Shown here one piece after another: positions 6,725-25,137 of a DNA stretch of 64,000 nucleotides; the first letter of the stretch is position 1, and the number at the start of each line of letters is the position of its first letter. The notes below the pieces were generated by a model. That model did no database searches, was not told where the DNA came from, and saw only the letters and a list, made by a program, of their open reading frames with translations. Source of the stretch: Thermococcus argininiproducens. Lineage in GTDB: Archaea > Methanobacteriota_B > Thermococci > Thermococcales > Thermococcaceae. The stretch spans positions 124,001 through 188,000 of the forward strand of contig NZ_CP080572.1 of assembly GCF_023746595.1 (NCBI RefSeq), written 5' to 3'. The translations under genes and the position numbers were made by a program.

Positions 6725-6863
6725 GCTTTATTTTTGAAGAGATTTAACAAGTTCTCTATAGCATCATTCACGTTTTTAGCATCCCTGCCAATCATCATAA
6801 ACTCAAAATCCTTTCCGTATTCCTTTTTGTAATTTTCTACCAAAAAACCATCCTTTACCTCGT
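6721..6863 (-). pseudogene. C-terminal remnant of a gene cut by the GC-rich element
   Basis: Reading leftwards from the element edge at 6863, an open frame encodes about 47 residues (HEVKDGFLVENYKKEYGKDF, continuing to a lysine-rich end) and stops at 6721, overlapping the ATPase 3' end by 4 bases. Composition and codon use look like real Thermococcales protein, and the frame upstream runs into the non-coding element. I infer the tail of a gene whose front was lost when the element arrived. I do not recognise the family. Confidence 0.5.
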
Positions 6864-7265
6864 GAAAGCCTCGTTCTTTAGGGCGGGGATGCAGGAATTC
6901 TAAAATTCGATCCTCAAGTAGAAACCTTTTTAAACTCTTACAACGTAATAAGCTCTCGAAGAGGCCACTCCAAGGGCAACCTTTAGTGAGGGTTTCACTC
7001 GTGTCCCCCTGCATGGGGGAAGACGCCGTTAGGCGTCCCCTTAAAACCGCCTTCAAGTGGTTTAAAACTTTAAGGAGTGGCCTTTGGGGCGATAACCCCG
7101 AGCCAGCTCGGGCTGGTAGGGGTAACGGGCCGAAGACCCGGCCCGCGGGCTGAACCGAAACTCGCAAGAGGAATAGGTGATGGGCCCGCAAACCAATGAA
7201 AGCCTTGAAGGGTGAGGGTTATGACTCCCGAGAGGAGCCCTCGCCCTTCAGGGCGGGGAGGAGGT
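6863..7265 (+). mobile_element. GC-rich non-autonomous element, IS605/TnpB-like end, copy 1
   Basis: This stretch of about 400 bp is far richer in G+C than its surroundings. It matches 23386-23780 (reverse strand) along its full length. The shared left edge is TGAAAGCCTC and the shared right edge is GGCGGGGAGGAGGTCAG. Internal hairpins include CCCCCTGCATGGGGG and GACGCC-GTTA-GGCGTC. Stems differ between copies while keeping pairing, which points to a structured RNA. The right end, a small stem followed by GGGGAGGAGGTCAG, resembles the tail of TnpB-type IS200/IS605 elements where the guide RNA is made. No intact tnpB or tnpA is present. The long reverse-strand frame here is unlikely to be a gene. 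Confidence 0.6.
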
Positions 7266-10003: not shown

Positions 10004-10137
10004 TCTTTCCCACCTCAAGATGATCGTGACTCTTATCTAACTTAATGTGAATAAAATTCATACTTAAATCTTTTGGTGCATTATGACCAAAAACCACTTT
10101 AAGAATGAAGTCCAATAGCAAAAATGGTGATTTCATT

Positions 10138-10785
10138 ATGAAAGTTATAGGAGACATTCACCTTGTGGATAACACGTTTGCAAACGTCTATCTCATAGTG
10201 AGAGATAACAAGCTCATAATAATAGACACCGGCCTGCCAGAAGAGTATGAGAAAATAATAAAATACATAGACAGCCTTGGCCGAATTCCGGAGGAAGTGG
10301 AGATTATTATAGCCACTCACGCTCATTATGACCATATAGGGGCACTGAAAGTCCTTAAAGAAGCCACGGGAGCAAAGGTTGCCGCTCATAAGGAGGAGAT
10401 CCCATACATAAATGGGGAGAAAGTTTTCAAAAAAGGCTACACACCAGTTTCAGAGCCTGTTGATGTCGAGATTTCTCTAGAAGATGGGGATGAAATTAAA
10501 GGGCTTAAAGTTATTCACTCTCCCGGCCACACTCCTGGAAGCATTTGTTTGCTTGATCTAGAGACAAAGGCCCTATTTGTCGGTGACTTAGTTGTGGAGC
10601 AAAAGGGGGAGCTTTACGAGGTTCCACATCATTATTCCATTGACCCAATGAAGAACAGGGAAGCTATAAAGGAGCTTTTGGAGATTGATTTCAACCATTT
10701 GCTGCCGAGTCATGGAAATCCTGTCTTAAATGAGGGGAAGGAGAAGTTGAGGGAGTTAGTGGAAAGGTTTTTAAAGAGTGATTAA
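10138..10785 (+). CDS. Metallo-beta-lactamase fold hydrolase
   Basis: The 215-residue protein belongs to the MBL-fold superfamily, glyoxalase-II-like branch, and probably hydrolyses a thioester or similar bond using two metal ions. The signature THAHYDH lies near residue 60, with further metal ligands in SPGHTPGS near residue 125, VGDLV near residue 146 and PSHGNP near residue 189. The ATG at 10138 follows GGTGAT at the right distance; an ATG at 10105 lacks one. It is divergent from the ArsR-type regulator, with an ACTTAAATCTTTT promoter at 10061-10073. Confidence 0.88.
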   Translation: MKVIGDIHLVDNTFANVYLIVRDNKLIIIDTGLPEEYEKIIKYIDSLGRIPEEVEIIIATHAHYDHIGALKVLKEATGAKVAAHKEEIPYINGEKVFKKGYTPVSEPVDVEISLEDGDEIKGLKVIHSPGHTPGSICLLDLETKALFVGDLVVEQKGELYEVPHHYSIDPMKNREAIKELLEIDFNHLLPSHGNPVLNEGKEKLRELVERFLKSD

Positions 10786-10957: not shown

Positions 10958-11395
10958 ATGCCGTATTGGCTTTGTATAACAAATAGAGAAAATTGGAAAA
11001 TAATAAAGAACAATAATATCTGGGGTGTTCCAGAGAAGAGACACAAAAATACGCTCCTAAAAGTTAAACCTAAGGATAAAGTGATCATCTATATCAAGCA
11101 AGAAAAAGACCAGGAGGGAAACACTCTAGAGCCAAAGATTGTTGCTATTTACGAGGTTGTCAGTGAACCATTCAAGGACTCTAAAAAAGTGTTTAAAGCT
11201 CCAAAAAATAGTAATGAAACATATCCCTGGAGAATTAAACTTAAACTCATTAAGTCCGGCGAAATCGAATTTAAGCCTTTAATTCCAAAATTAAGTTTTA
11301 TCAAGAACAAAAAGAAATGGTCAACACACTTATTCGGAAAAGCCATGCGTGAGATCCCAGAAGAAGATTATAAATTAATTGAGAAACTCCTTTAA
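10958..11395 (+). CDS. EVE domain protein
   Basis: The 145-residue protein is a stand-alone EVE domain, a PUA/YTH-related fold thought to bind modified nucleotides and often linked to defence against modified DNA. It opens [20 protein letters not shown] and shows the typical [11 protein letters not shown] and [10 protein letters not shown] stretches. Ribosome site and ATG are clear. It is the left border gene of the AT-rich defence island. A diverged copy of its last 45 codons lies at the right border (21926-22063). Confidence 0.85.
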
Positions 11396-11432
11396 TTTCC
11401 TATTTCTTTTAAATTATACTGGAGGTAGGTAT

Positions 11433-11894
11433 GTGATAGCAGCAGAAATTGAAATAAATGATTTTAAAATTTCTACAAAAAACGGAAAGAAGAGCCCAAA
11501 TGATTTTATAATACAAGCAAAATTTCGGGGAAATAAGCGTCTTTTTACCCCCAAACACGCCCATTTTGTGATCGATTTCTACGGAAAACTTTGTTATAAT
11601 AAAGAGATTGCCAAGAAATTATTTAATGCAATTAAAAAAGTTTATAGTGGAGAATCTCCTGAGAAGGTTCTAACTGATATGAATCCTGATGATATTAAAC
11701 AGATTAACAATGCACCTGGTTACCCAATAGAGTATATTCTCTACACATTATGGTTGATTTTTGAGCAAGAAGACATTAATTATCCACGTTCTGAAGGATA
11801 TAAAGGGAGACAACAACCATATCAGATGTTCCAAGATGTTTTGAATGGCATACATCCAGTAAATGCAATGAAAAAAACTGGACTTAGAATATAG
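11433..11894 (+). CDS. Unknown protein between EVE and methyltransferase genes
   Basis: I do not recognise this 153-residue soluble, lysine-rich protein. The GTG at 11433 is chosen because GGAGG precedes it by 7 bases; the nearby ATG is out of frame, and the frame further upstream overlaps the EVE gene without a ribosome site. A possible helical domain near residue 105 (APGYPIEYILYTLWLIFEQE) is followed by a charged tail ending MKKTGLRI. The gene is AT-rich like the rest of the island and sits 46 bases before the methyltransferase, suggesting a defence-related partner. Confidence 0.6.
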   Translation: MIAAEIEINDFKISTKNGKKSPNDFIIQAKFRGNKRLFTPKHAHFVIDFYGKLCYNKEIAKKLFNAIKKVYSGESPEKVLTDMNPDDIKQINNAPGYPIEYILYTLWLIFEQEDINYPRSEGYKGRQQPYQMFQDVLNGIHPVNAMKKTGLRI

Positions 11895-11940
11895 AATAAT
11901 TTTTAAAGCTTTAGAATAGCAATAAATTCGGTGAGAAGTT

Positions 11941-12933
11941 ATGGACAGATATGTCCCAATGCGAGAAGTTCCATTTGACGAATATCTGGAATATGTAAAA
12001 ACACATGATCATGTGATTATTGAGAACAGAAAAATTACAATTGGAAAATCCCTTCATATAAATACCTTCCAACCCTCTAAGTTCGAGTTGGAAAGTTCCA
12101 CTGTGTGGAGTTTTCCTGACCGAGGAAAATGGGCCACTCATTATGCTAATGCTAAATACAGGGGGAATTGGGCCCCTCAAGTGCCAAGGAATTTGATCTT
12201 AAAATATACAAAGCCTAAAGAAGTAGTGTTAGATGCATTTTTAGGAAGTGGCACAACGTTGATAGAATGTAAGCTTTTAGGAAGACATGGAATCGGAATT
12301 GACATTAATTATGAAGCTCTAATGGTAGCATGGGATAGACTTAATTTCACATATACTCCCCAATTAGAGAAGAAAGCAGATTTAAGTGCATTTCTTCACG
12401 GAAAAGAAGAAAAAGAAGAAAAAGAGTGGATCGAACCTACAATAAAACTTTATCATGGGGATGCCAGAAATCTCGATAAAATAGATGATGAAAGTATAGA
12501 TTTGATAGCTACCCATCCACCTTATGCCAATATTATTAGTTACAGTAAAAAAGCTAAATTAGAAGTTAAAGGGGATCTTTCTAAAGTTGTCTCAGTCGAT
12601 GAATTTGTTGATGAAATGCAAAAAGTCGCTAGTGAGTTTTATAGGGTTCTAAAACCTGGCAGGCATGCTGCCATACTTATGGGAGATACAAGAAGGCACA
12701 GGCATTATGTGCCTATTGCTTTTAGAGTTATGGAAGCATTTTTGGAAGTGGGTTTTATATTGAAAGAAGACATTATAAAGTTGCAACACAATATGATTGG
12801 TACAATTCCTTGGAAAAAATGGCATCGGGATTTCCATTTAATCGCTCATGAGCACTTGTTTATATTTAGAAAGCCAGGAAAAGGAGAAAACGTTAGAAAA
12901 TTTAAAGAAAGTATAAAATGGTGGATGGGTTAG
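11941..12933 (+). CDS. Site-specific DNA methyltransferase
   Basis: This 330-residue SAM-dependent DNA amino-methyltransferase has motif I as DAFLGSGTTLIE from residue 98 and catalytic motif IV as THPPY at residues 191-195, a less common variant of (D/N/S)PPY. The motif order I then IV and the SAM-binding GIGIDINYEAL fit the N6-adenine/N4-cytosine class. No target-recognition domain can be named. It sits directly upstream of the helicase/DUF1998/PLD fusion gene, the place a DISARM methylase would occupy. It may mark self DNA for that system rather than for the DpnII pair, which has its own Dam enzyme. Confidence 0.75.
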   Translation: MDRYVPMREVPFDEYLEYVKTHDHVIIENRKITIGKSLHINTFQPSKFELESSTVWSFPDRGKWATHYANAKYRGNWAPQVPRNLILKYTKPKEVVLDAFLGSGTTLIECKLLGRHGIGIDINYEALMVAWDRLNFTYTPQLEKKADLSAFLHGKEEKEEKEWIEPTIKLYHGDARNLDKIDDESIDLIATHPPYANIISYSKKAKLEVKGDLSKVVSVDEFVDEMQKVASEFYRVLKPGRHAAILMGDTRRHRHYVPIAFRVMEAFLEVGFILKEDIIKLQHNMIGTIPWKKWHRDFHLIAHEHLFIFRKPGKGENVRKFKESIKWWMG

Positions 12934-13040
12934 TAATTAATTTATGTTTTAGTAATTACTAGAATTGATAATTAAATAGTTTAATAAGACGTAAGATATT
13001 TAACGTTTCGTTCAATAAAGAAATATAGTGGGGATACTCA

Positions 13041-16000
13041 ATGACAGGTACTGGGGAATTAAGAGAGATTTATCATGCATTATTGGAGATTGAATATAAT
13101 AAATATGAGTCCACTAAACATCTAAATGATACATTTCTTGAGGAGGCGGATTTGAAAAGGTATCCAGATGAAGTTATCTTAGAACTTTTGTCGAGAGGAT
13201 TTCTTATTAAGTTAGGAAAGAACAAGTATAGAACTATTCATATGGATATTGCAGTTAGGAGTGTTGATGTTAGATCAAGTTATTTTGGGAATAAGCGTAT
13301 TTTGGAATATCAACTATTACGCCGAAAAGTACCTGTTTTACGGAGAGACTATTTAGACTTAACGAATTCTGAGCATCCAAGGTATAAGACATTTTTTACA
13401 CTTCTTTTGAGCATTATTCATGATGAGGAATTAGTAAGGATTTTGATAGATAGTCTGGTTAAGGGGAACATTCGAGGATTGTCAAAATATCAGTTTGATT
13501 CTATTCGAACAATTCTTACGAGTAGTAACTCTCCAGTAGTTGTCTCAGCACCCACAGGTTTTGGAAAAACATTTGTTTATTTTGTTCCAATATTGGTTGA
13601 GGCATTAAAGGCAAAAAAAGATAATATTCCTGGGCCAAAGGCCGTTCTATTTTATCCGAGGAAGACACTTGAATCAGATCAAATGAGTGAGATGATATCT
13701 GTTCTGTATCACCTTAATGAAATCCTTCCGGATTCTATTGGGAAAATAACTATAGCTATTGATGATGGCAACACAAAACGATTAGATAAGATAGAAGAGG
13801 GGGAATTATTTAGAGGAATTAGGGACCCTATAACTGGAGAACAACTTAAAATTAAAAAAACGACCTCTGAAGCATTTGTTGAGATAAATGGAAAAAGAGT
13901 TGATTGGATTCTTATTGACAAGGATTCTATCCGGGAGAATCCTCCTGATATCCTAATTACTAATATTTGGGCTTATCAGTATAAACTAGTGGATAGAAGA
14001 TATTGGAAGGGATATCTTTCTGATAAGATTAAATATTTTGTATTTGATGAAGTACATACATATAGAGGTATTGGAGCAGGGATTCTTAGATACTTTATTC
14101 GCTCTATTATGTCATTAATTTCTCCTCGGGCAAAGTTAATATTATCTTCCGCTACAATTCCGAAAATAAAAGATTTTGTTGAAGAGATTACAGGGTATCC
14201 ATATATAAAATTTGCAAAAGCTGTTTATAGTGAGTCTATTCATGGGATTGATTTCTATAAGTATGAGCTATATCTTTTACTCGGGATCTCTCCAGGAATT
14301 CACTGGGGAACTTATACATATGAGTTGGCATTATATCTTGCTATATTGAATAGGCTCTATGAATATGCTAAAAAGTCCAAATTACAAACAATTACTTTCA
14401 TTGATTCTATAAAAGAAATTGATAGGCTTAAATCTCAGACTATCCAAGCTATAACTCTTGCTGATGACCGTATTCTCCCCCATTTAAACAAGGAAATGCA
14501 TTCCAATCCAGAAGACTCGTTTGTCTATTGGATATATAATCCTAATATAGTGGATGATCAAAATAGTTTAGAAAAGATAATCAAAGAGTTGGAAAAGAAG
14601 ATTGAGCATCATTATTCGAGTAGGGCAGATAGATACGAAATTGAAGAAAGATTGAAACGTAAAGACATTGATGTTATTTATGCTACTAATACTCTTGAGT
14701 TGGGAGTGAATTATAGTTCTGTATCTATTGTAGTTAATGCTGGGATACCTCTTTCTAAAGAAAGTATAATTCAAAGAATGGGGAGAGCTGGAAGAAACAG
14801 TAAGGATACATTAAATACTGCCGTAGGTATAGTGATTATTCGTAATAATCCATTAGAATATTATTATTTGTACACAGGTTTAGAGGAGTTGTTGGATATT
14901 AGTAAAGCTCCTAAGATTCCGGTCTCTTATAATAATCATTTTGTTATATTGTTTTCGGCATTACTTTACTCGGCATTTGATTTAAGTAGACGTGGGATGA
15001 AAAACAAAATTAGGGTGGGGGATGAGGATTCTCTAGTTTCAGCAATAGAAGATCTATGGATGTACTATCTTGCCAATAAGAGTGAGATTCAAAAACGATT
15101 GGGATTTCCAGAATTCCCCGAGAAATTGGAAGCTAGAGTTACTAAGCTCCTCGACTTAATTAAACAACCCGATATTGGTTCTAAATGTGATAAGTATAAA
15201 GAAAGAACTAGGATAGAATACTTGTTTTCTGAATTTGAAGAAATAAAAATTGAAATAAATAATCTCTTGAAAACTGTGGAAGAGACCAGCAGATCAATTT
15301 CTATTGACAGGAAAATTTTAGAGAGGATAATAACTGATATTAAATTATATCTTAAACAAAAATTGCCAAAAGACATCAAGGGGGTACATTCTCACTTGTT
15401 GTACTTGGATCAGAAGCTATCAGAAATGGAGGGTTATCTGGTTAGAGTTTTGATTTCTTCGGAACTGGTAAGAGATCTAGAAGAGATTAGAGAGAGAATT
15501 ATTCAATTAAATAAATTCTTACTTGGATTGGGTGACATTGTCTCAATGTCGGAAGATAGGATACCCCCTTTATTAACTATTGCCTGTGACTTTCTGGATA
15601 GGCTTAATTCTGCAAAAGATAGACGTGGGTATGTTCACATAATTAATGTCATTGAAGAACTGATGGGGTTTAAGTTTTTAGGGATTGATTTTATAGAAGA
15701 AAAAGTTAGACTTAATTATCAAAATTCTAACAGAGATGATGTAATAGAATATTTAACTTCCATTATAGCTAGAGTTCCTCCTTTTGAAGTTAGGAGTTAT
15801 CCGTATGATGAACCTGATCAGTCTAAACTAACAAGCTATGTCGGAGGAAGATATGTATGGTTTGTACGTCCCAAATTTTACAGAATATATGCTCCAGATT
15901 GTCAGACAATTGAGAACATATTACGAAATGAAGGTATTTATGATGGTATTTCTACTAAGTACTCCGATTTTGTTACCCCTCAAAGGATAGTTTTGTTGGA

Positions 16001-17843
16001 CCTTTTAGAAAATTCTCCACTTATCTTGAAAATTATTTGTAAGGATAATCGTCCATTGTTCATAAAGTATGGTTCCAACTCAATTACTAATGCTAAAATA
16101 TTTGCTGGGAGAGGAGTTTATCAGCTAGGTAACAATGTTAAAAAACTTAAGCAATTTGGGAGACAATGGAAAAATTATGATATAACCCTCAGAGCTACAC
16201 TTGAGAAACTAGAGGAACTTAAAGAAAAAAGCAAAAGCCTTCCTTATCCTGGGATAATGTTAAACTATATTTCGTATTGTGACTTAGGATATGCAATATC
16301 TACTGATCCCTGGGATATTGTGTGTCCAGAACTAATTAGAAGGGAATGTCCAGTGTTTAAGAAAAAGAAATGTGATGAAAAACAATTCTGGAATACTTTT
16401 AGAAATATTTTCCCACGTATCTATGTACAGAAAAAAGTGGAAATCCCCAAGGAAGTATTGCCTGAGGAAGATATTTCTCCATTATTTATGCGGTTTAAGG
16501 TTATTCAATACCACAAAATTGAGAATAATCCATTGGTATTCTATTATGACTCTGTTTCATTTCCAGTCCCAGTGTCTTTTGTTTCTGATTACAGAATTAG
16601 AGAATTTGACATTCAAAAAATCGGATATCATGCTATAACTTCAATGATATTGATTGAATTTAACATCACATTACTCGAACTTATTTCTAGATTCTTATTG
16701 GCGGATGGGTTAATCAAGGAATTAATTTTATTTAAGAAATTCATGCATGATTACATGCTTCGTATGCCACTTTGGAATATAACTGTAAATGATCTTGAGA
16801 AATTTGGAGAATTTAAGACCAATATATCAGATCAAGAATTGGTACACTTTACTATCAAGATATTGTTACATACTTTCGCCCATAGATTCCTTGTATTTTT
16901 GAGTTCTAGATATGGAGTTGAAATGTCCAAGTTGTTGTATCAGTTAGATGTGAAAAAAGGTAGGATTTTCATCATTGAAAATGCTAAGAGTGATGGGTTG
17001 GGAATAGTAGAGACTTTTGAAAAAGACATTCAAAAAGGATGGATAAATATCCTTAATGAATTTATAACCAAGGAAATGCTATTTTTTGATAAACATGAGA
17101 AAAATGTAAACTCTCAAAGAGTTAAGATTCAAAAAGAGTATTCTAAGAATCTCAGGGATTTATCAACTAAAAAGAAAATGATCCAAGAATTAAAAGAGGA
17201 TATTGAGGCACTTAATCAGAGAATTTCAGATATAATTCCGGTAGAATTTCTGGGATACTCTATGTATAGATATTTACTGCTAAACTCTATCAGAGGAATA
17301 ACTAATTCTGAGAAAAGACCATATTTATCATTGGTTCAAGGGAGCTTAGGAGTTCCACATTTATGTTATGATGGTTGTAATGCATGTTTGATATTTGAAA
17401 GAGGGTGTAATGAACCATTTGTACAAGAGTTTACCTTGTCTAAACAGCTATATTTGAGGTTTTTAAAGGTTTTAAGGTCAGGGTCATTTTCACTGTTAGA
17501 TATTAAAGGGTTTGGTGAGTATTTCAGGAAACTTCTACTGAATTCCAAGGAAGTAGAGATTAAGGTTCCATTTGTTGACAAGAGTGGTATTGATATACTC
17601 CGAGAGGCCTTAGAAAAGGGAGTTAAAATAAATCTTGTTACAAGGTCTGACACATTTAAATTTATACCTCCAGATATTTCAGATAAAGTTGATATAACAA
17701 TTCAGGAGGATTTTCACTCCAAAATTTACACGCTAAGACAGAATAACACAGTGGTGAGACTTTCTGGTTCGGTAAACTTGAATACATCTAGTTTGTTTGA
17801 AAAGAAAGAGAATATTACAATCGAGATTTTATTAGAGGGTTGA
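13041..17843 (+). CDS. Giant helicase-DUF1998-PLD fusion, DISARM-like (DrmA+DrmB+DrmC)
   Basis: This 1600-residue protein looks like three DISARM-type defence proteins in one chain. An SF2 helicase comes first: Walker A SAPTGFGKT from residue 168, DEVH at 336-339, SSAT near 368, and QRMGRAGR near 577. The middle includes a coiled region (about 700-860) and a cysteine group (CPELIRRECPVFKKKKC, near 1095). An MZB/DUF1998-like part begins with HTFAHRF at 1277 and has CYDGCNAC at 1441. The end is phospholipase-D-like, with HSKIY at 1559 followed by GSVNLNTSS. In known DISARM these are separate genes; the fused order matches A-B-C. The gene is very AT-rich, suggesting transfer. Domain calls are by motif only. 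Confidence 0.75.
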   Translation: MTGTGELREIYHALLEIEYNKYESTKHLNDTFLEEADLKRYPDEVILELLSRGFLIKLGKNKYRTIHMDIAVRSVDVRSSYFGNKRILEYQLLRRKVPVLRRDYLDLTNSEHPRYKTFFTLLLSIIHDEELVRILIDSLVKGNIRGLSKYQFDSIRTILTSSNSPVVVSAPTGFGKTFVYFVPILVEALKAKKDNIPGPKAVLFYPRKTLESDQMSEMISVLYHLNEILPDSIGKITIAIDDGNTKRLDKIEEGELFRGIRDPITGEQLKIKKTTSEAFVEINGKRVDWILIDKDSIRENPPDILITNIWAYQYKLVDRRYWKGYLSDKIKYFVFDEVHTYRGIGAGILRYFIRSIMSLISPRAKLILSSATIPKIKDFVEEITGYPYIKFAKAVYSESIHGIDFYKYELYLLLGISPGIHWGTYTYELALYLAILNRLYEYAKKSKLQTITFIDSIKEIDRLKSQTIQAITLADDRILPHLNKEMHSNPEDSFVYWIYNPNIVDDQNSLEKIIKELEKKIEHHYSSRADRYEIEERLKRKDIDVIYATNTLELGVNYSSVSIVVNAGIPLSKESIIQRMGRAGRNSKDTLNTAVGIVIIRNNPLEYYYLYTGLEELLDISKAPKIPVSYNNHFVILFSALLYSAFDLSRRGMKNKIRVGDEDSLVSAIEDLWMYYLANKSEIQKRLGFPEFPEKLEARVTKLLDLIKQPDIGSKCDKYKERTRIEYLFSEFEEIKIEINNLLKTVEETSRSISIDRKILERIITDIKLYLKQKLPKDIKGVHSHLLYLDQKLSEMEGYLVRVLISSELVRDLEEIRERIIQLNKFLLGLGDIVSMSEDRIPPLLTIACDFLDRLNSAKDRRGYVHIINVIEELMGFKFLGIDFIEEKVRLNYQNSNRDDVIEYLTSIIARVPPFEVRSYPYDEPDQSKLTSYVGGRYVWFVRPKFYRIYAPDCQTIENILRNEGIYDGISTKYSDFVTPQRIVLLDLLENSPLILKIICKDNRPLFIKYGSNSITNAKIFAGRGVYQLGNNVKKLKQFGRQWKNYDITLRATLEKLEELKEKSKSLPYPGIMLNYISYCDLGYAISTDPWDIVCPELIRRECPVFKKKKCDEKQFWNTFRNIFPRIYVQKKVEIPKEVLPEEDISPLFMRFKVIQYHKIENNPLVFYYDSVSFPVPVSFVSDYRIREFDIQKIGYHAITSMILIEFNITLLELISRFLLADGLIKELILFKKFMHDYMLRMPLWNITVNDLEKFGEFKTNISDQELVHFTIKILLHTFAHRFLVFLSSRYGVEMSKLLYQLDVKKGRIFIIENAKSDGLGIVETFEKDIQKGWINILNEFITKEMLFFDKHEKNVNSQRVKIQKEYSKNLRDLSTKKKMIQELKEDIEALNQRISDIIPVEFLGYSMYRYLLLNSIRGITNSEKRPYLSLVQGSLGVPHLCYDGCNACLIFERGCNEPFVQEFTLSKQLYLRFLKVLRSGSFSLLDIKGFGEYFRKLLLNSKEVEIKVPFVDKSGIDILREALEKGVKINLVTRSDTFKFIPPDISDKVDITIQEDFHSKIYTLRQNNTVVRLSGSVNLNTSSLFEKKENITIEILLEG

Positions 17844-17847
17844 TAAT

Positions 17848-19224
17848 ATGGAAACTTTAATCACATTGGAAACGAGCAAAATTAATAGTAACATTTACTT
17901 AATAAACCCCTTTATTCGTTATTATACTTTATTTAGAAAAATTAGTACACATATCATTAAGGCAAGAAAAAGGATGCCTGTAGAAGTACATAATGTATTA
18001 TATTCCTACCCAGTATATCTTCCAGAAATTGATTACATGATATTCTTGGATGTTTCTAGTAATGAGCTTAATAAAAAGATCCTTTCTGAGTTTTCTGCGT
18101 ATTCTGGGTTGAGGAGTGCCAAAGAGCTAATTTTCCAAGCTAAATTGTATAATTTCAACAAGGAAAATAGAGCTGTTACGTGGGGTAATATACAGTCTTA
18201 TGTTTTTGAGAAAAAGCTTAGAGATTTATACCAGTGTTTTTACTACTTAGTTAATTTTAGTCTGAGGATTACCCCGTCTATCATTCTTGGAAATAAATTA
18301 ATATCCCCAAATAGGTGGGCTTTGTTATCTACTGAGACACATACTCGGATATTTTCAACAAAAGTTTCTCTAAATGTCTTCCCAGTATATATTGAGAAAG
18401 AAGCCCTAAAAAATATTAAAAAAAGGCAAGTATTTTTGCCATTACCTATGACCCTTTATGAAATAAAAGCAACAGCTTTAGAGTTTTTTCCTACTGGTAA
18501 TATTCATATTTTGAATATCCCATTACATTTTGTTGATCATCCATCTAGAGAATTCATTTTATCTGAGATTGAGGGTAGTGGGGAATATTATATTGTCTAT
18601 GCTTTTTCATTTCTTGATGTTAATACTAGCGGGAATAACAAGATGATAAATATTGTTGAAAATATCATGCCCCTTTATCCAATTGATATTCTATTGGGAT
18701 TATCGGTAATGTATATGGAATCCCAAGAAATTGGCAAATTAATATGGAGAATTAACTTTAATAGAGCAAACGTAGAGCGTATAAGGCGAGTCTTGTCTAA
18801 GAGATCGGCTTCTATATATCTACATGGAGCATGGATAGATCTTATCTCTTCAAAGTTCTATCCATTCTTTAATATTGAAGAAAATGGGACTCATTTATCA
18901 GTAAGAGCCATAAATCCAGGTTTTTTGGCACATATGTTTAGAAGAATATTTTTCGAAAAAGGGCATGAAGATAATATTTTCCTATTGAAAAAGCTTCAAG
19001 AGTTATTTAGCATGTTAGAGGAGTATAATGAAATTCAACAGAAAAAAGGTAATGCTAGCATTGTAGAATTGTTAGGATATAAGAGACAATTTGAGGAGAA
19101 ATATAGAAAAAAATACGGGAAGGGAGTGTGGAACCTTTTAGTTAGAGCTTCTTCAATAGTAAGAATTCGTGAGTATGTGTTGAGGAAGTACAGAGATATT
19201 ATTCTACAACATACAAGGAGGTAG
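17848..19224 (+). CDS. Unknown defence-island protein
   Basis: I recognise no family in this 458-residue protein. It starts 4 bases after the helicase fusion and ends 5 bases before the DpnII-type gene, so it is almost certainly cotranscribed with them. It is rich in Ile, Lys, Asn and aromatic residues, with no signal peptide, clear transmembrane run, P-loop or zinc motif. Long helices are likely in the last 100 residues, with YKRQFEEKYRKKYGKGVWNL near residue 410. Given the neighbours it may be a structural or sensing partner of the fused helicase. Confidence 0.65.
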   Translation: METLITLETSKINSNIYLINPFIRYYTLFRKISTHIIKARKRMPVEVHNVLYSYPVYLPEIDYMIFLDVSSNELNKKILSEFSAYSGLRSAKELIFQAKLYNFNKENRAVTWGNIQSYVFEKKLRDLYQCFYYLVNFSLRITPSIILGNKLISPNRWALLSTETHTRIFSTKVSLNVFPVYIEKEALKNIKKRQVFLPLPMTLYEIKATALEFFPTGNIHILNIPLHFVDHPSREFILSEIEGSGEYYIVYAFSFLDVNTSGNNKMINIVENIMPLYPIDILLGLSVMYMESQEIGKLIWRINFNRANVERIRRVLSKRSASIYLHGAWIDLISSKFYPFFNIEENGTHLSVRAINPGFLAHMFRRIFFEKGHEDNIFLLKKLQELFSMLEEYNEIQQKKGNASIVELLGYKRQFEEKYRKKYGKGVWNLLVRASSIVRIREYVLRKYRDIILQHTRR

Positions 19225-19229
19225 AGGAT

Positions 19230-20135
19230 ATGGTTAAGTATTTGGAATTAAGGTATAAAACATTTGAAGAATATTTTGAGAACTTTATTGATACTTTACT
19301 CTCAACAAACAAGACTTATGAATATTTTGTTGATTGGGAAAAAGTGAAGAATGTCGTTTTGAAATATGAAAAAGAGCTGGCTCTGTTAAAACAATTGTAC
19401 GAATTGAAACCTAAAAAAGCTAAAGAGCGATTAAAATTATTGCTACAAGAGCATCCAACAATACTGCCTCTTATCCCCGCTCTAATCGCTGAAAGAACTG
19501 ATAAAGGATTATTAAGTATTTATGACCCAGATAAAATGCAATTTGTAGAATTTAATTTTAAGTCGCACTTTTTAACAGAGAGCGAAATTAATCAAATAGT
19601 TGAATTTTGTGAAAAAACGGGACTATTGGATGTCTTGATTAGTGTTCAAAATTTGAGAGATTACCTATTTGGGGTTGAGGTTGGGATTGATACAAACGCT
19701 AGGAAAGGGAGAAGTGGCACACTTTTTGAAAAAATGGTAAAAAGATTCCTTGAGAAAAATTTGCCTGAATATGTAAGAGTCATTCCTCAGGATAGAAGGT
19801 TTTCTCTCTATGAGACTATTGGAAGAACTAAAAAGGAGAAAGCTAAAAGGCATGACTTCGTATTGTATAAAGAAGAAACTCCTATTATGGCTATAGAAGT
19901 CAATTTCTACAATGTTACAGGAAGTAAACCGATAGAGATTGTTGGGAGTTATATTACTCTAAATAAGGCAGCCAAAGAAAAAGGAATTGCCTTTGTGTGG
20001 GTTACAGACGGACCAGCGTGGAAAAAGATGAGGGAGCCATTAATGAGAGGAATGAAAGAAATTGAGTGGGTTGTTAATTATTTCCAACTTCAGAAGCTTA
20101 TTCAATATTTCAACTCCATTAACTGGGAAATTTAA
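19230..20135 (+). CDS. DpnII-type restriction endonuclease (GATC)
   Basis: The 301-residue protein matches the DpnII/MboI family of type II endonucleases that cut unmethylated GATC. Family features are the helical N-terminus with LLKQLYELKPKKAKE, the NARKGRSGTLFE motif near residue 152, and a PD-(D/E)xK-type centre around RHDFVLY and AIEVNFYN (residues 207-230). A ribosome site AGGAGG precedes it. It is convergent with the Dam methylase 15 bases downstream, the usual pairing for this system. It is last in the operon with the helicase fusion. Confidence 0.87.
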   Translation: MVKYLELRYKTFEEYFENFIDTLLSTNKTYEYFVDWEKVKNVVLKYEKELALLKQLYELKPKKAKERLKLLLQEHPTILPLIPALIAERTDKGLLSIYDPDKMQFVEFNFKSHFLTESEINQIVEFCEKTGLLDVLISVQNLRDYLFGVEVGIDTNARKGRSGTLFEKMVKRFLEKNLPEYVRVIPQDRRFSLYETIGRTKKEKAKRHDFVLYKEETPIMAIEVNFYNVTGSKPIEIVGSYITLNKAAKEKGIAFVWVTDGPAWKKMREPLMRGMKEIEWVVNYFQLQKLIQYFNSINWEI

Positions 20136-20150
20136 AAAGAGGAGATGAAA

Positions 20151-21113
20151 CTACACCTTTACAAGAAACTCTGCTATAGTTATTTGTTTTTTAATTTCTC
20201 TTTTAGTCATTGACATCATTTTTGTTCCGTTTCCATTTTTTGTTAATTCAATTGCTTTTGAGATACCAACTCTAAGCTCTTTTGGCACATTGGTGACTAA
20301 TATTTCTGCTATTTTTCCTCTTTTATCTGCTTTTGAGTTTATGGCTCTGTTAGCATAAACAGTAATAACCTCAAATTCTTTGATTCCTTCATATAGCTCC
20401 CTAACTGGCTGAGCATGAGAGTTACTCAGGATAAAGTAAACTCCCATTTCATGTAATTCAATACACACATCTCTTAACCTTTCTTGATCTTTTTGAGTGA
20501 AGTCATCTTTTGAGTAGCTAGTGAAGTTAGCTGTTTTGGAAATTGGATGATACGGGGGATCGAAGTATACTAGATCCCCTGGCCGAGCAACAGTTAGGAT
20601 ATATGTAAAGTCTTCATTGTAAATTTCAAGTCTCTTCAGAACTTCACTGACTTTTCTAAGTCTCTCTTCATCTACTATTGTTGGATTTTTATATCTACCA
20701 AAAGGAACGTTGAATTCTCCTTTTCTATTTTCTCTATAGAGGCCATTATATCCTGTCTTATTTAAATACAGAAGTAAGCTTGCAAGCCTTATGTGTGGAG
20801 GTCTGAAACCTTCTCTGATTATCTTATTAAACTCTTCCCTAGCCTTATAGTAATACTCTTTTTCATTTTTATGCTGCTTTGCATCTTGTATTAGTTCTTC
20901 AACATAATCTCTAACCACAAGATAGAAGTTTATTAGTTTAAGATTAATGTCATTGATTGTTCCTCTTTTTGGCTCTAGCCAAAAAGTAACTGCTCCTCCT
21001 CCAAAAAATGGTTCATGGAATGTTCTCTCTTTGAAATCTTTTGGCATTAGTGCTACTATTTGAGGCAATATCTGTCTTTTTCCTCCAGCCCATTTTAACA
21101 CAGGTTCGGCCAT
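20151..21113 (-). CDS. Dam-type DNA adenine methylase (GATC)
   Basis: This 320-residue D12-class N6-adenine methyltransferase probably protects GATC sites from the adjacent endonuclease. It opens with the SAM-binding motif LKWAGGKRQILPQI, then FHEPFFGGGAVTFWL near residue 36, and the catalytic DPPYHP near residue 184. The start at 21113 is selected because GGAGAGGATG lies just before it; the longer frame to 21167 would place the N-terminus inside the promoter. The upstream region carries three copies of GTGCAACA, suggesting dedicated regulation. Confidence 0.9.
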   Translation of the reverse strand: MAEPVLKWAGGKRQILPQIVALMPKDFKERTFHEPFFGGGAVTFWLEPKRGTINDINLKLINFYLVVRDYVEELIQDAKQHKNEKEYYYKAREEFNKIIREGFRPPHIRLASLLLYLNKTGYNGLYRENRKGEFNVPFGRYKNPTIVDEERLRKVSEVLKRLEIYNEDFTYILTVARPGDLVYFDPPYHPISKTANFTSYSKDDFTQKDQERLRDVCIELHEMGVYFILSNSHAQPVRELYEGIKEFEVITVYANRAINSKADKRGKIAEILVTNVPKELRVGISKAIELTKNGNGTKMMSMTKREIKKQITIAEFLVKV

Positions 21114-21171
21114 TTTATCATCCTCTCCATATTCAATTCTCTTTAGCTTAATAAAGTTATTATACATTTGT

Positions 21172-21229
21172 GTGCAACAATATTATTTAAGCTTTTTGGT
21201 GCAACATTATGTGAAGATAATGTGCAACA
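21172..21229. promoter_or_regulatory. Three GTGCAACA direct repeats upstream of dam
   Basis: GTGCAACA occurs at 21172-21179, 21199-21206 and 21222-21229 in the dam promoter. The reverse complement TGTTGCAC occurs at 21871-21878, upstream of the small gene at 21362-21811. The repeat spacings of 27 and 23 bases are near whole helical turns. This arrangement suggests a shared operator through which the small ribbon-helix-helix-like protein or another factor balances the restriction-modification genes. Confidence 0.45.
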
Positions 21230-21361
21230 CAAAAACTAATTTTTTGCACATAGTGAGTAAAAATGGTATTTTAGACAATTTGTTGTGGGCATACGCTTAA
21301 TGCCTCGTTATAATTGCATATCCAAAGGGAGAAGTTGGAATAAGAAGTACTAAACGGGAGA

Positions 21362-21811
21362 TCAAACCCCATAGCTAAGCCCAAGCTTTTTTCTGATATA
21401 ATTTGAAATGTCAAGACCTTCTTTAGTAGCTTCTTCAAGAACTCGGTTATACTCTTCTTCAGTTACTCTAATTGATATCCATTTAGTTCTCTTTACTGGA
21501 CCAAAGAGGGCTTTAGCCTCTGCCTCCCAGAGCGCCTTTAGGGCTTTAGCTTTAGTTTTAATAATCCTTGCTCTAGTAAATCCTGAAAATTCTCTCTCAA
21601 GTATCTCCTTAAACTCTTGAAGTGTTTCTTCATTTCCATTATTATACCTCAAAAATTCAGAAAGTGCTATTTTAACTGCTTCATTCCATTCTTTAAACCC
21701 TTTATACTTGAGAATTGCTTCAAATGCCTTTATACCAGCTGCAGGGACTTTAGATTTCCCAATTACTGGAGCATTCACTTCATTCAACTTTTTGAGAATA
21801 CTCTCAAACAT
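21362..21811 (-). CDS. Ribbon-helix-helix-like protein, possible controller
   Basis: The 149-residue charged protein has a C-terminal segment resembling a ribbon-helix-helix DNA-binding motif: KWISIRVTEEEYNRVLEEAT followed by GLDISNYIRKKLGL (residues 108-147). The N-terminal two-thirds is helical and unknown. It lies upstream of dam on the same strand. Its promoter holds the reverse complement of the octamer repeated three times before dam, so it could be the controller of the restriction-modification cassette. That role is inferred from position and the motif only. Confidence 0.6.
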   Translation of the reverse strand: MFESILKKLNEVNAPVIGKSKVPAAGIKAFEAILKYKGFKEWNEAVKIALSEFLRYNNGNEETLQEFKEILEREFSGFTRARIIKTKAKALKALWEAEAKALFGPVKRTKWISIRVTEEEYNRVLEEATKEGLDISNYIRKKLGLSYGV

Positions 21812-21925
21812 TTTTTCTTCACCTAGTCTGTTCTTAATTGATTTTAATGTTTCACCATTTAAATAAATTATGTTGCACTATGATTTTTATTACTCTGTAG
21901 ATTTCCAAGGAGCATAGGCGAGTAA

Positions 21926-22063
21926 ATGAAATTTAAACCCTTAATTCCAAAACTAAACTTCATCACAAACAAAAAGAAGTGGAGCGGCCACTTAATGGGC
22001 AAAGCTATGAGAGAAATTCCAGAAGACGATTACAAACTAATTGAAAGTCTCATAAAAGAATAA
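21926..22063 (+). pseudogene. Displaced 3' end of an EVE-domain gene
   Basis: Forty-five codons ending at 22061-22063 encode [20 protein letters not shown] and then [18 protein letters not shown]. They align residue by residue with the last 42 residues of the intact EVE protein at 10958-11395, but the DNA has clearly diverged. It has no front part and no evident ribosome site, so it is a remnant. It marks the right border of the AT-rich island, with higher-GC housekeeping sequence resuming at trpB2. Confidence 0.8.
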
Positions 22064-22070
22064 AAGAAGA

Positions 22071-23330
22071 TCATATCATCCCATTCAACGCCGGAATCTC
22101 TTCAGGTTCGTAATCCTGCAGTTTTCCCTCCAAGAAGTCATCATACCCCTTAAGATCAAGGAGACCATGGCCGCTTAGATTGAATAGTATAACCCTCTCT
22201 TCTCCCTTCTCCTTTGCCTGAAGAGCTAAATCTATTGCGGCCTTTATTGCGTGTGCACTCTCAGGGGCCGGTACTATTCCTTCGCTCCTTGCAAATGTTA
22301 GAGCGGCTTCAAAAACTTCTGTTTGGTGATAAGCTACAGGTTTAACGATGCCATGGTTAAGGAGCACGCTGAGTGTGGGGGCTAGGCCGTGATACCTCAA
22401 GCCTCCAGCGTGAATGGGTGGGACATAGTATGTATGACCTAGAGTGTGCATTTTCATTTTTGGAGTTAGTTTTCCTGAATCTCCGTAGTCATATGTGTAA
22501 ATTCCCGATGTCATGCTCGGAGCGGCTTTTGGTTCAACCGCTATAAACTCATATTCTGCTTTACCATCTAGAACATCTTTGACAAATGGATAAGCTAAAC
22601 CTGCAAAGTTGCTTCCTCCACCAACGCATCCAATTATAACGTCCGGCTCCTCAAACTCCTTCATCTGTTCCTTAGCCTCAAGGCCTATGACAGTCTGGTG
22701 CATAAGGACGTGGTTCAACACACTGCCAAGGGAATAGCGTGCACTTTCATTCCTCAAAACATCTTCAATGGCCTCACTTATTGCTATCCCCAAGCCACCG
22801 GGATGATTTGGGTCCTCCTTTAGAAACCTTTTACCTACCTCAGTCCTATTACTTGGGCTGGGGTAGACCTCCGCTCCATAGACATTCATTAAGACTCTCC
22901 TATATGGCTTCTGCTGAAAACTGGCCCTTGCCATATAAACACGAACCTTTAAGCCAAGCAGGGCTCCAGCAAGCGAAAGGGCCGTTCCCCACTGGCCTGC
23001 TCCAGTTTCCGTTACTAGCCTTTCAATACCCTGTTTCTTAGCGTAATACGCCTGTGCTAGGGCCGTGTTTATCTTGTGACTTCCCGTTGTCGTTGCACCC
23101 TCGTATTTGAAGTATATCCTTGCCGGGGTGCCTAACTTTTTCTCAAGGTTTGTGGCCCTGAACAACGGTGTGGGTCGACCTATCTTTGCATAGAGCTCCC
23201 TAATTTCCCCTGGAATCTCAACATAACGTTCCTTGCTCATCTCTTGCTTCACAAGTTCTCCCGCGAAAATTCTCAAGAGCTTTTCAGGTTTTATTGGTTC
23301 CTCTGTCTCCGGATCTAAGGGAGGCGCCAA
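22071..23330 (-). CDS. trpB2: Tryptophan synthase beta chain 2 (TrpB2), start lost
   Basis: TrpB2 is the stand-alone PLP-dependent beta-type tryptophan synthase of archaea, making tryptophan from indole and serine. The PLP lysine lies in [10 protein letters not shown], and [11 protein letters not shown] and [11 protein letters not shown] (phosphate loop) are intact. The frame is open and homologous up to about 23385 ([18 protein letters not shown]), where it runs directly into the right end of the GC-rich element. The usual first handful of codons and the ATG are missing, and no ATG or GTG occurs in frame. Only a TTG at 23328-23330 could serve, costing about 25 residues. The gene may be silent or poorly expressed. 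Confidence 0.85.
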
Positions 23331-23385: not shown

Positions 23386-23780
23386 CTGACCTCCTCCCCG
23401 CCGTGAACAACGAGGGTTCCAACGAATTAACCCCTCGCCAGTGGCGGAGAGGTTTGCGGGCCCATCACTTACTCCCGTTGCCGGTTTCAGTTCAGCCCGC
23501 GGGCCCGGTCTTAGGCCCATTACCCCTACCGCAAAGCGGTTCGGGGTTATCGTTTTAGAGGCCACTCTTCAAGGTTTCAACCACCTCAGCGGTGGTATTA
23601 TAAAGGACGCCTAACGGCGTCTTCCCCCATGCAGGGGGACACGAGTGAAACTCTCACTAAAGGTTGCCCTTGGGGTGGCCTCTTCGAGATCCTATTACGT
23701 TGCAAGAGTTTAAAAAGATTTCTACTTGAGGACTAAATTTTAGAATTCCTGCATCCTCACCCCAAAGAGAGAGGCTTTCA
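23386..23780 (-). mobile_element. GC-rich non-autonomous element, IS605/TnpB-like end, copy 2
   Basis: This is the reverse-strand counterpart of 6863-7265, with the same edges: TGAAAGCC at its left end (23773-23780 here) and GGCGGGGAGGAGGTCAG at its right end (23386 side). Between the copies, stem sequences change together. For example, the loop region between CCCCGA and TAGGGG holds ACCGC/GCGGT here and AGCC/GGCT in copy 1, which indicates selection for RNA structure. The right end lies where the first codons of trpB2 should be. No transposase gene is included. Confidence 0.6.
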
Positions 23781-23868: not shown

Positions 23869-25053
23869 TCATTTCCTAAAAACCCTCACCATCAATAGCA
23901 AACCCAAGATAAGGCCTGGCCCACAGACACTCTCTGTTTGTTGTGATGTTGTGGAAGTTGTACTAGTTTGAGGAAGCTCAACCTGGCTCGGAGGAAGCTT
24001 AAGCTTAAAAGGTTGGCCAACACACCTCAACAAAAGTGGACTGTCACTTTCGTCATAAGCAACCCATGAATACTTCCCATCTTTCTCGTACCAGCCTATA
24101 TGGGAGTTATAACCCGCTTTTCCCATTTTTGCAACCTTTGCAATCATTTCAATGTCCTCTTCGTTGATCCTGACTATCCCATTATCCCTAAGCCACACGA
24201 GCTCTGTTCTAAGGGCCTCGGTGAAGTTAAAGGAATAAGGATCAACCACCCCTGTAGGACTTTCCACAGTCTCGCTTTCGAAACTCAAGTTTTCAAGCAT
24301 GCACGAGATTCCAAAAACATCAAAAAGGGCCTTCATTTCATTCAAATCCTCTTCACTTGGCTTTTCTTTCCCATAGTCTGCTATCCAGACCTCAGCATTT
24401 GGTACCTTAACAACTTTTGATGGGTCCATGTTGTGCTCTCTTAAACACTTTTCAAATTCCTCATTTGATTTCCATGTGCAGAAACCATTGACACAGCCGC
24501 ATTGAGTTAATCTTAAGCAATCATACCATTCCGCATATATGCATGGGGTGATTACTTCTTTTGCTTTATCTCTAGTAGTACAAACTTCTCCAGAGCATCC
24601 TCCTGTAGCACACTCCGAGTCATTTTGACATTCATCTCCCCTTGATAGATTTATTTGCACAAGCAGATTCTTCTTTTTGAATGTAAACCCTTCAACTTCC
24701 CATCCAAGCTCTTTGGCTTTCTCAACCATCTCTTCAGAAATTAGCAAAGGAGTTACAAGTGAAGCATGAGCATAGGTGGAGCTAAAACTCTTTGCCGGTA
24801 TCTGGACCCTAACCCTAAGAAAGCCATTATCCTCACTTAAAATTACCGCAACGCTTTCATCATGGTGTGAACGATAGATTATGCTATCATTTTCGATTAT
24901 CACATTTTGAGCAGATTTCAATGGGGTTAAATCATAAGTAATCCCAGGTTTGTTGAGATAAACTTCAACTGCTAGAGAATCCATTGGGTTATAACACGCA
25001 TTTGCGAAAGGCACGAAGAAAAGTAAAATCCCAATGAGCAGTGACCATCGCAT
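23869..25053 (-). CDS. CGP-CTERM anchored Cys-rich surface protein
   Basis: This 394-residue secreted protein has an N-terminal signal (MRWSLLIGILLFFVPFANAC). A Thr/Ser/Gln spacer (TSTTSTTSQQTES) and the Thermococcales CGP-CTERM sorting tail (CGPGLILGLLLMV plus VFRK) end the protein, which is probably processed and lipid-anchored outside the cell. In the middle, cysteines cluster between roughly residues 155 and 215 (ECQNDSECATGGCSGEVC and CGCVNGFC), matching the eight-cysteine-cluster domain found in this family. The ligand is unknown. The start at 25053 is taken for its spacing to GGTG; an ATG at 25059 is equally possible. Confidence 0.87.
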   Translation of the reverse strand: MRWSLLIGILLFFVPFANACYNPMDSLAVEVYLNKPGITYDLTPLKSAQNVIIENDSIIYRSHHDESVAVILSEDNGFLRVRVQIPAKSFSSTYAHASLVTPLLISEEMVEKAKELGWEVEGFTFKKKNLLVQINLSRGDECQNDSECATGGCSGEVCTTRDKAKEVITPCIYAEWYDCLRLTQCGCVNGFCTWKSNEEFEKCLREHNMDPSKVVKVPNAEVWIADYGKEKPSEEDLNEMKALFDVFGISCMLENLSFESETVESPTGVVDPYSFNFTEALRTELVWLRDNGIVRINEEDIEMIAKVAKMGKAGYNSHIGWYEKDGKYSWVAYDESDSPLLLRCVGQPFKLKLPPSQVELPQTSTTSTTSQQTESVCGPGLILGLLLMVRVFRK

Positions 25054-25137
25054 TTTCATACACCGTAAGTGTATAGAGTTCAAAGTATATACGCCTATCG
25101 AGAACTTCAAACCCATTTGAAGTTATTCGTTGGCAAA

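Follow-up and report, generated by a model that had tools for sequence, protein, structure and literature searches.

Genes between the MBL and trpB2-like genes

The window, that is, the whole 64-kb stretch of DNA analysed here, comes from a 1.95-Mb single-contig genome of the Thermococcaceae. Within it, an 11-kb stretch of low GC content (0.31-0.34, with about 0.37-0.49 in the flanks and a background of about 40%) lies between a metallo-beta-lactamase (MBL) gene (10105..10785, + strand; PF00753), its left backbone neighbour, and a trpB2-like gene (PALP; 22071..23330, - strand; PF00291), its right neighbour, whose start codon may be at 23240. The MBL flank is conserved in five relatives (G078, G079, G080, G075 and G077), and the trpB2-like gene matches those of the last three at 88-89%. 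The right backbone anchor is a gene for a CGP-CTERM-anchored Cys-rich protein (23869..25116, - strand); it is common to the genus (the G084 orthologue matches TIGR04292 at 2.6e-152) and adjoins an EVE gene in G084, G078 and G076. A dispersed, GC-rich, structured repeat of about 335 bp, which we take to resemble an IS200/IS605-type end, occurs at 23386-23720 (+) and, inverted, at 6863-7194, so that two inverted copies bracket a 16-kb segment comprising MBL gene, island and trpB2. In this genome its long copies number 11 and its short ones about 14; it is present in 13 of 13 genomes of the genus, folds with a z-score of -4.4 and has no match in Rfam.

The island opens with an intact EVE gene of a divergent lineage (10958..11395, + strand), encoding 145 amino acids, of which positions 2-145 are covered by PF01878 (E = 1.2e-22; 80.9 bits, the cut-off being 23). 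The next gene (11433..11894, + strand; the ORF opens at 11379, the likely start being the GTG at 11433) encodes a small protein without a match in Pfam, PADLOC or NCBIfam. It is related to the protein that occupies the restriction endonuclease slot of other cassettes, with homologues in those of G079, G013, G048 and G068; in the last three the small protein stands at the opposite end of the cassette, resembling a circular permutation. Then come an N4/N6 DNA methyltransferase (11941..12933, + strand; PF01555; PADLOC MTase_II, 5.8e-73), a 1600-aa DEAD/Helicase_C protein with a C-terminal PLD-like domain (13041..17843, + strand; Pfam) and, after a 4-bp gap, a 458-aa protein (17848..19224, + strand) for which searches of Pfam, PADLOC and NCBIfam gave no match. 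The helicase gene and its neighbour are probably co-transcribed. In PADLOC the helicase weakly resembles DrmA, DpdJ and DruE, which together with its PLD domain invites comparison with DISARM and YprA-type systems; the pair (13041-19224) is possibly an undescribed YprA-like defence system. Only two near-full-length homologues of the helicase, at 35-36%, occur in 115 Thermococci genomes.

Further right, a DpnII-family restriction endonuclease gene (19230..20135, + strand; PF04556, 2.1e-73) and a Dam-type D12 adenine methyltransferase gene (20151..21167, - strand; PF02086, 1.3e-74; TIGR00571, 5.5e-91) are 15 bp apart and are predicted to form a type II restriction-modification (R-M) system of the DpnII/MboI type. 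A NikA-like ribbon-helix-helix (RHH) protein (21362..21811, - strand; PF21983, C-terminal) is its neighbour and a probable regulator. The RHH upstream region then runs into EVE sequence at a junction (21812..21925): the first ~92 nt are homologous to DNA upstream of the G079 RHH gene, EVE homology begins at about 21905-21917, and the break falls near EVE codon 95-103. What follows is an EVE 3' remnant of 45 codons plus stop (21926..22063, + strand).

A standalone EVE gene that adjoins R-M genes makes this an EVE-associated defence locus in the sense of Bell et al. 2020. There is no tRNA gene within the window, so it is not a tRNA-bounded island; Pfam identifies no integrase or recombinase among the island genes, and an Rfam search of the window returned no match.

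Two EVE lineages at one site

The initial annotation placed a complete EVE gene at the left border and the last 45 codons of another at the right, and both sets of coordinates are confirmed to the base. This genome has one EVE gene above the family cut-off, plus the 45-codon fragment. Among direct repeats in the region, the longest (11262-11389 and 21924-22051, in the same orientation) measures 128 nt, is 76% identical and contains the last codons of EVE; in a whole-genome search the remnant protein corresponds to residues 103-145 at 79% (E = 8e-18). The copies are thus, as first described, diverged in DNA and nearly colinear in protein. The remnant ORF runs from the ATG at 21926 to the TAA ending at 22063, and an in-frame TAA just upstream (21923-21925) marks it as a truncated gene. 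Changes unique to it number 2/0/8 by codon position, five of them nonsynonymous, exceeding those of any full copy compared; since they show no clear constraint, the idea that the ORF is under selection as a mini-gene was rejected.

At the DNA level the tail shares 83-84% identity with the EVE genes of four members of the window's genus (G083, G075, G084 and G074), 84% with that of G002 and 83.5% with that of G093, but only 74% with the intact EVE gene 10 kb away. It is therefore not a recent copy of the latter. The intact EVE protein, for its part, is 88% identical in amino acid sequence to that of G079 and at most 72% to every other. In a tree of 53 EVE genes, the window, G079 and G006 copies, each of which adjoins a D12 methylase, make up a divergent group, in which the G006 gene is a long branch of unsure placement. 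A strongly supported split between window plus G079 and the Thermococcus cassettes is also seen in the D12 and N4/N6 methylase trees, and the RHH tree does likewise separate them, the two being joined there only by the copy on plasmid pTBMP1, which at 82% is the closest to the window RHH among those compared. Since the intact EVE gene is divergent together with both methylases and the RHH gene, it appears to belong to the R-M cassette. A part of its divergence may reflect fast evolution of an AT-rich, long-branched gene.

Another reading is that one EVE gene underwent tandem or dispersed duplication, one copy then evolving rapidly, with no second arrival. The best tree for the 127-nt tail does join it to the intact lineage's long branch, though weakly (support 83/49), and constraining the tail with the genus's other EVE copies is not rejected (p-AU 0.26). 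The 74% identity of the tail to the intact copy, as against 84% to EVE genes of other species, the matching divergence of the cassette genes and the G079 flank described below make this extremely improbable. A homologous crossover inside EVE at the window site was likewise rejected: the intact gene is divergent over its whole length, with no mosaic.

In G079, MBL is followed in turn by EVE, the small protein, the N4/N6 methylase, a 215-aa protein, the D12 methylase and RHH; in the 310 bp between RHH and the Cys-rich-protein gene there is a decayed EVE tail, which ends at the stop codon and occupies the very position of the intact EVE gene in G084. Beyond the stop codon, the DNA that follows the G079 tail and that following the G084 EVE gene are nearly identical (score 278; shuffled maximum 62). 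The match of tail and flank argues that in G079 the older EVE gene degenerated where it stood, alongside the same cassette, so that a cassette bringing its own EVE came to rest next to an older one. The window has the layout of G079, but its tail is better preserved and trpB2 is still there. Five other relatives (G078, G084, G074, G076 and G081) have EVE at the locus beside type I R-M, AbiE/SNF2 or VapBC genes, and all five are without trpB2; the presence of trpB2 here consequently calls for one extra loss or gain. As for the island-free relatives, MBL and trpB2 are 80 bp apart in G080 with no EVE between them, and a VapBC-like pair alone, again with no EVE, separates them in G075 and G077; G077 has no EVE anywhere in its genome.

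The reading that we consider probable is of a layered defence island, in which an R-M cassette with its own EVE came to lie beside the EVE gene of an older island, whose tail survives. An earlier island would have brought EVE between the MBL gene and the trpB2/Cys-rich-protein gene. The DpnII/Dam-type R-M cassette, with its divergent EVE, would then have entered between the MBL gene and the older EVE, a step to which the gene trees and G079 point. The older EVE gene, its 5' end turned toward the new cargo, would have lost that end, and its 3' end, on the backbone side, would be the 45-codon tail. We infer both the sequence of these steps in the lineage to which the window belongs and the mode of entry, which was most likely illegitimate or homology-assisted recombination after plasmid-borne arrival.

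The initial annotation had proposed a somewhat different course: an island with its own EVE, arriving at a conserved resident EVE gene that served as landing site and was reduced to its tail. The two EVE lineages, and the G079 decayed tail at precisely the position of the intact G084 gene, agree with it, and the part of the proposal that concerns the island's own EVE and the tail of an older one stands. The resident as conserved landing gene does not fare well: the single EVE next to trpB2 that was expected in island-free relatives is absent from G080, G075 and G077, and every EVE-bearing relative of the genus at this site has defence or toxin-antitoxin genes alongside. The remnant is indeed matched better by relatives than by the intact copy. 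That the island-free relatives lack EVE at the site argues that the older EVE came with an earlier island, and the absence of EVE from empty tRNA-His loci (below) adds to the reasons for thinking the resident-gene version unlikely.

EVE genes and their tails across the Thermococcaceae

An EVE match is found in 59 of 94 Thermococcaceae genomes. An EVE gene or tail is within 2.5 kb for 13 of the 17 true D12 methylases, where 0.06 would be expected, and within 6 kb for about 10 of the 36 strong HsdR genes (0.3 expected), shared descent not being corrected for in either figure. The commonest EVE position, with 31 copies or tails, is between cargo and tRNA-His/TYW3, the 3' end of the tRNA facing EVE in all 31, in a single orientation; several further copies are near tRNA-Gln. 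The cargo at the tRNA-His position comprises DUF499-SNF2, type I R-M, Eco57I-type and Dam/N4 cassettes. The CobA-tRNA-His-TYW3 interval measures 293-563 bp and is EVE-free in G035, G037, G017 and G018. The wider suggestion that EVE genes serve as landing sites thus loses ground, the commonest landmark being the tRNA-His 3' end, which in empty genomes has no EVE, and a shared recombination core not having been found. That genomic islands are bounded by tRNA genes, and that R-M genes are linked with genome polymorphism, is well known; the 31 EVE loci on the tRNA-His 3' side are of that kind, whereas the window site has neither tRNA nor integrase.

Along the EVE tree, cargo type varies at random (34 changes, against 34.7 after shuffling), so that the notion of cargo following EVE lineage was rejected, with the exception of the D12 group (6 against 7.6; 20 of 500 shuffles). 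EVE position is clustered on the tree (14 against 21.4), though not significantly so inside genus g4 alone. EVE is also carried by plasmid pTBMP1 of T. barophilus (NC_015471.1) and by the 58-kb extrachromosomal element of M. jannaschii; a search for it in phages gave zero matches. The standalone EVE genes of the Thermococcaceae come with islands and mark their edge, and are not an ancestral landing gene. They would sit at the margin of defence islands of modular make-up, with the 3' side against a stable landmark, be it the 3' end of a tRNA or a core gene, and with cargo turning over mostly on the 5' side. The arrangement varies: in G015 (L098 10104-14876) the cassette is on the EVE 3' side (EVE-N4MT-c13-D12MT-RHH-TYW3), unlike that of G020 and others, where it is on the 5' side. 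A cryptic EVE tail in the G015 interval from RHH to TYW3 was considered and found not convincing. In several genomes, the EVE genes of SNF2-PLD/AbiE and DUF499 islands have as companion a DUF365 protein with weak similarity to EVE (L096 9296-9757).

Thirteen EVE remnants have lost the 5' part and retained the 3' part, and the reverse is not seen except in one contig-end case (a sign test gives 0.0002, or 0.008 with no more than eight taken as independent, the remnants sharing descent to some degree). An inversion splitting EVE into halves was rejected, the sole 5' half being at a contig end (G047). Most simply, the 3' side would border a stable landmark and the 5' side changing cargo, so that decay can be expected to leave 3' tails. 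In eight of 12 remnants the breakpoint lies between nt 289 and nt 325 of EVE (P about 0.003 when shared descent is roughly corrected for). One remnant belongs to Methanocaldococcus sp. SG1, whose EVE 3' tail (L214 3648-4125) stands in the order HsdR, YgjP-like, tail, carB-like, the YgjP and carB names being taken from the sequence as read and not from a library match; the HsdR-YgjP-EVE order occurs intact in G084.

Prophage e14 at icd exemplifies integration into the 3' end of a gene, with a displaced tail. Site-specific integration into the EVE 3' end, the element supplying a replacement 3' end and displacing a tail of ~130 nt, would fit the geometry of the window (direct orientation, intact copy on the left, 3' tail on the right) and could explain why breakpoints cluster. 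The island genes include no integrase, however; no identical direct-repeat core is found at the island ends, where the repeats are only 76% identical, or across the remnant breakpoints, which are up to 37 nt apart and have no flank in common; the divergence of the intact EVE gene is not confined to its 3' part; and most tail-only loci have no intact EVE at the opposite side. Progressive erosion, together with the limit of detection, would also pile up short tails. Lacking integrase and identical core, the locus favours edge erosion, and we regard site-specific integration as decidedly improbable. The clustered breaks do keep in view a broader reading, in which breakage or recombination favours the 3' third of archaeal EVE genes, defence modules are exchanged by way of it among islands, plasmids and genera, and EVE is a homing anchor for such cargo, but differing sites and flanks and gradual erosion weigh against it, and we think it quite unlikely.

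Relation to known systems

The EVE family includes proteins of solved structure: PH1033 (PDB 1WMM, 2HD9, 2ZBN; E = 1.5e-66) and MJECL36 (2P5D; E = 3.8e-47), named after the M. jannaschii large extrachromosomal element; for both, the match supplies a structure and no function. To go by its family, the EVE protein probably serves as a modified-base reader and partner of the neighbouring systems.

The partnership of EVE with R-M systems is already known: in its account of archaeal loci, Bell et al. 2020 (PMC7641849) places standalone EVE genes beside type I R-M and COG1743-DUF499-SNF2 systems and predicts that EVE acts as a modified-DNA reader for them. The same protein class and the same partners, type I R-M and DUF499/SNF2, are recovered here; DpnII/Dam cassettes, EVE as the gene at the outer edge, tRNA-His and tRNA-Gln positions, the way cargo turns over with respect to the EVE tree and 3' tails were not found in that account. 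The same paper's treatment of Streptococcus presents EVE-bordered hotspots that are alike in that defence and mobile genes vary beside a border gene with an EVE domain. In those hotspots EVE is fused to other domains, its position is conserved and transposases are present, whereas the EVE of the window stands alone, arrives with its island and is missing from empty sites. The literature searched yielded no description of EVE at the edge with tRNA landmarks, of the turnover of its cargo or of 3' tails, which does not prove that none exists.

Stepwise replacement of an island can be followed at this site, from an intact older EVE gene (G084) through a decayed tail (G079) and a truncated tail (the window) to an empty site (G080). 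Two easily merged ideas, that EVE partners restriction systems and that EVE marks the place where they land, are thereby kept apart, and EVE genes and their 3' tails offer a cheap marker by which defence hotspots of archaeal genomes, both current and former, may be located.
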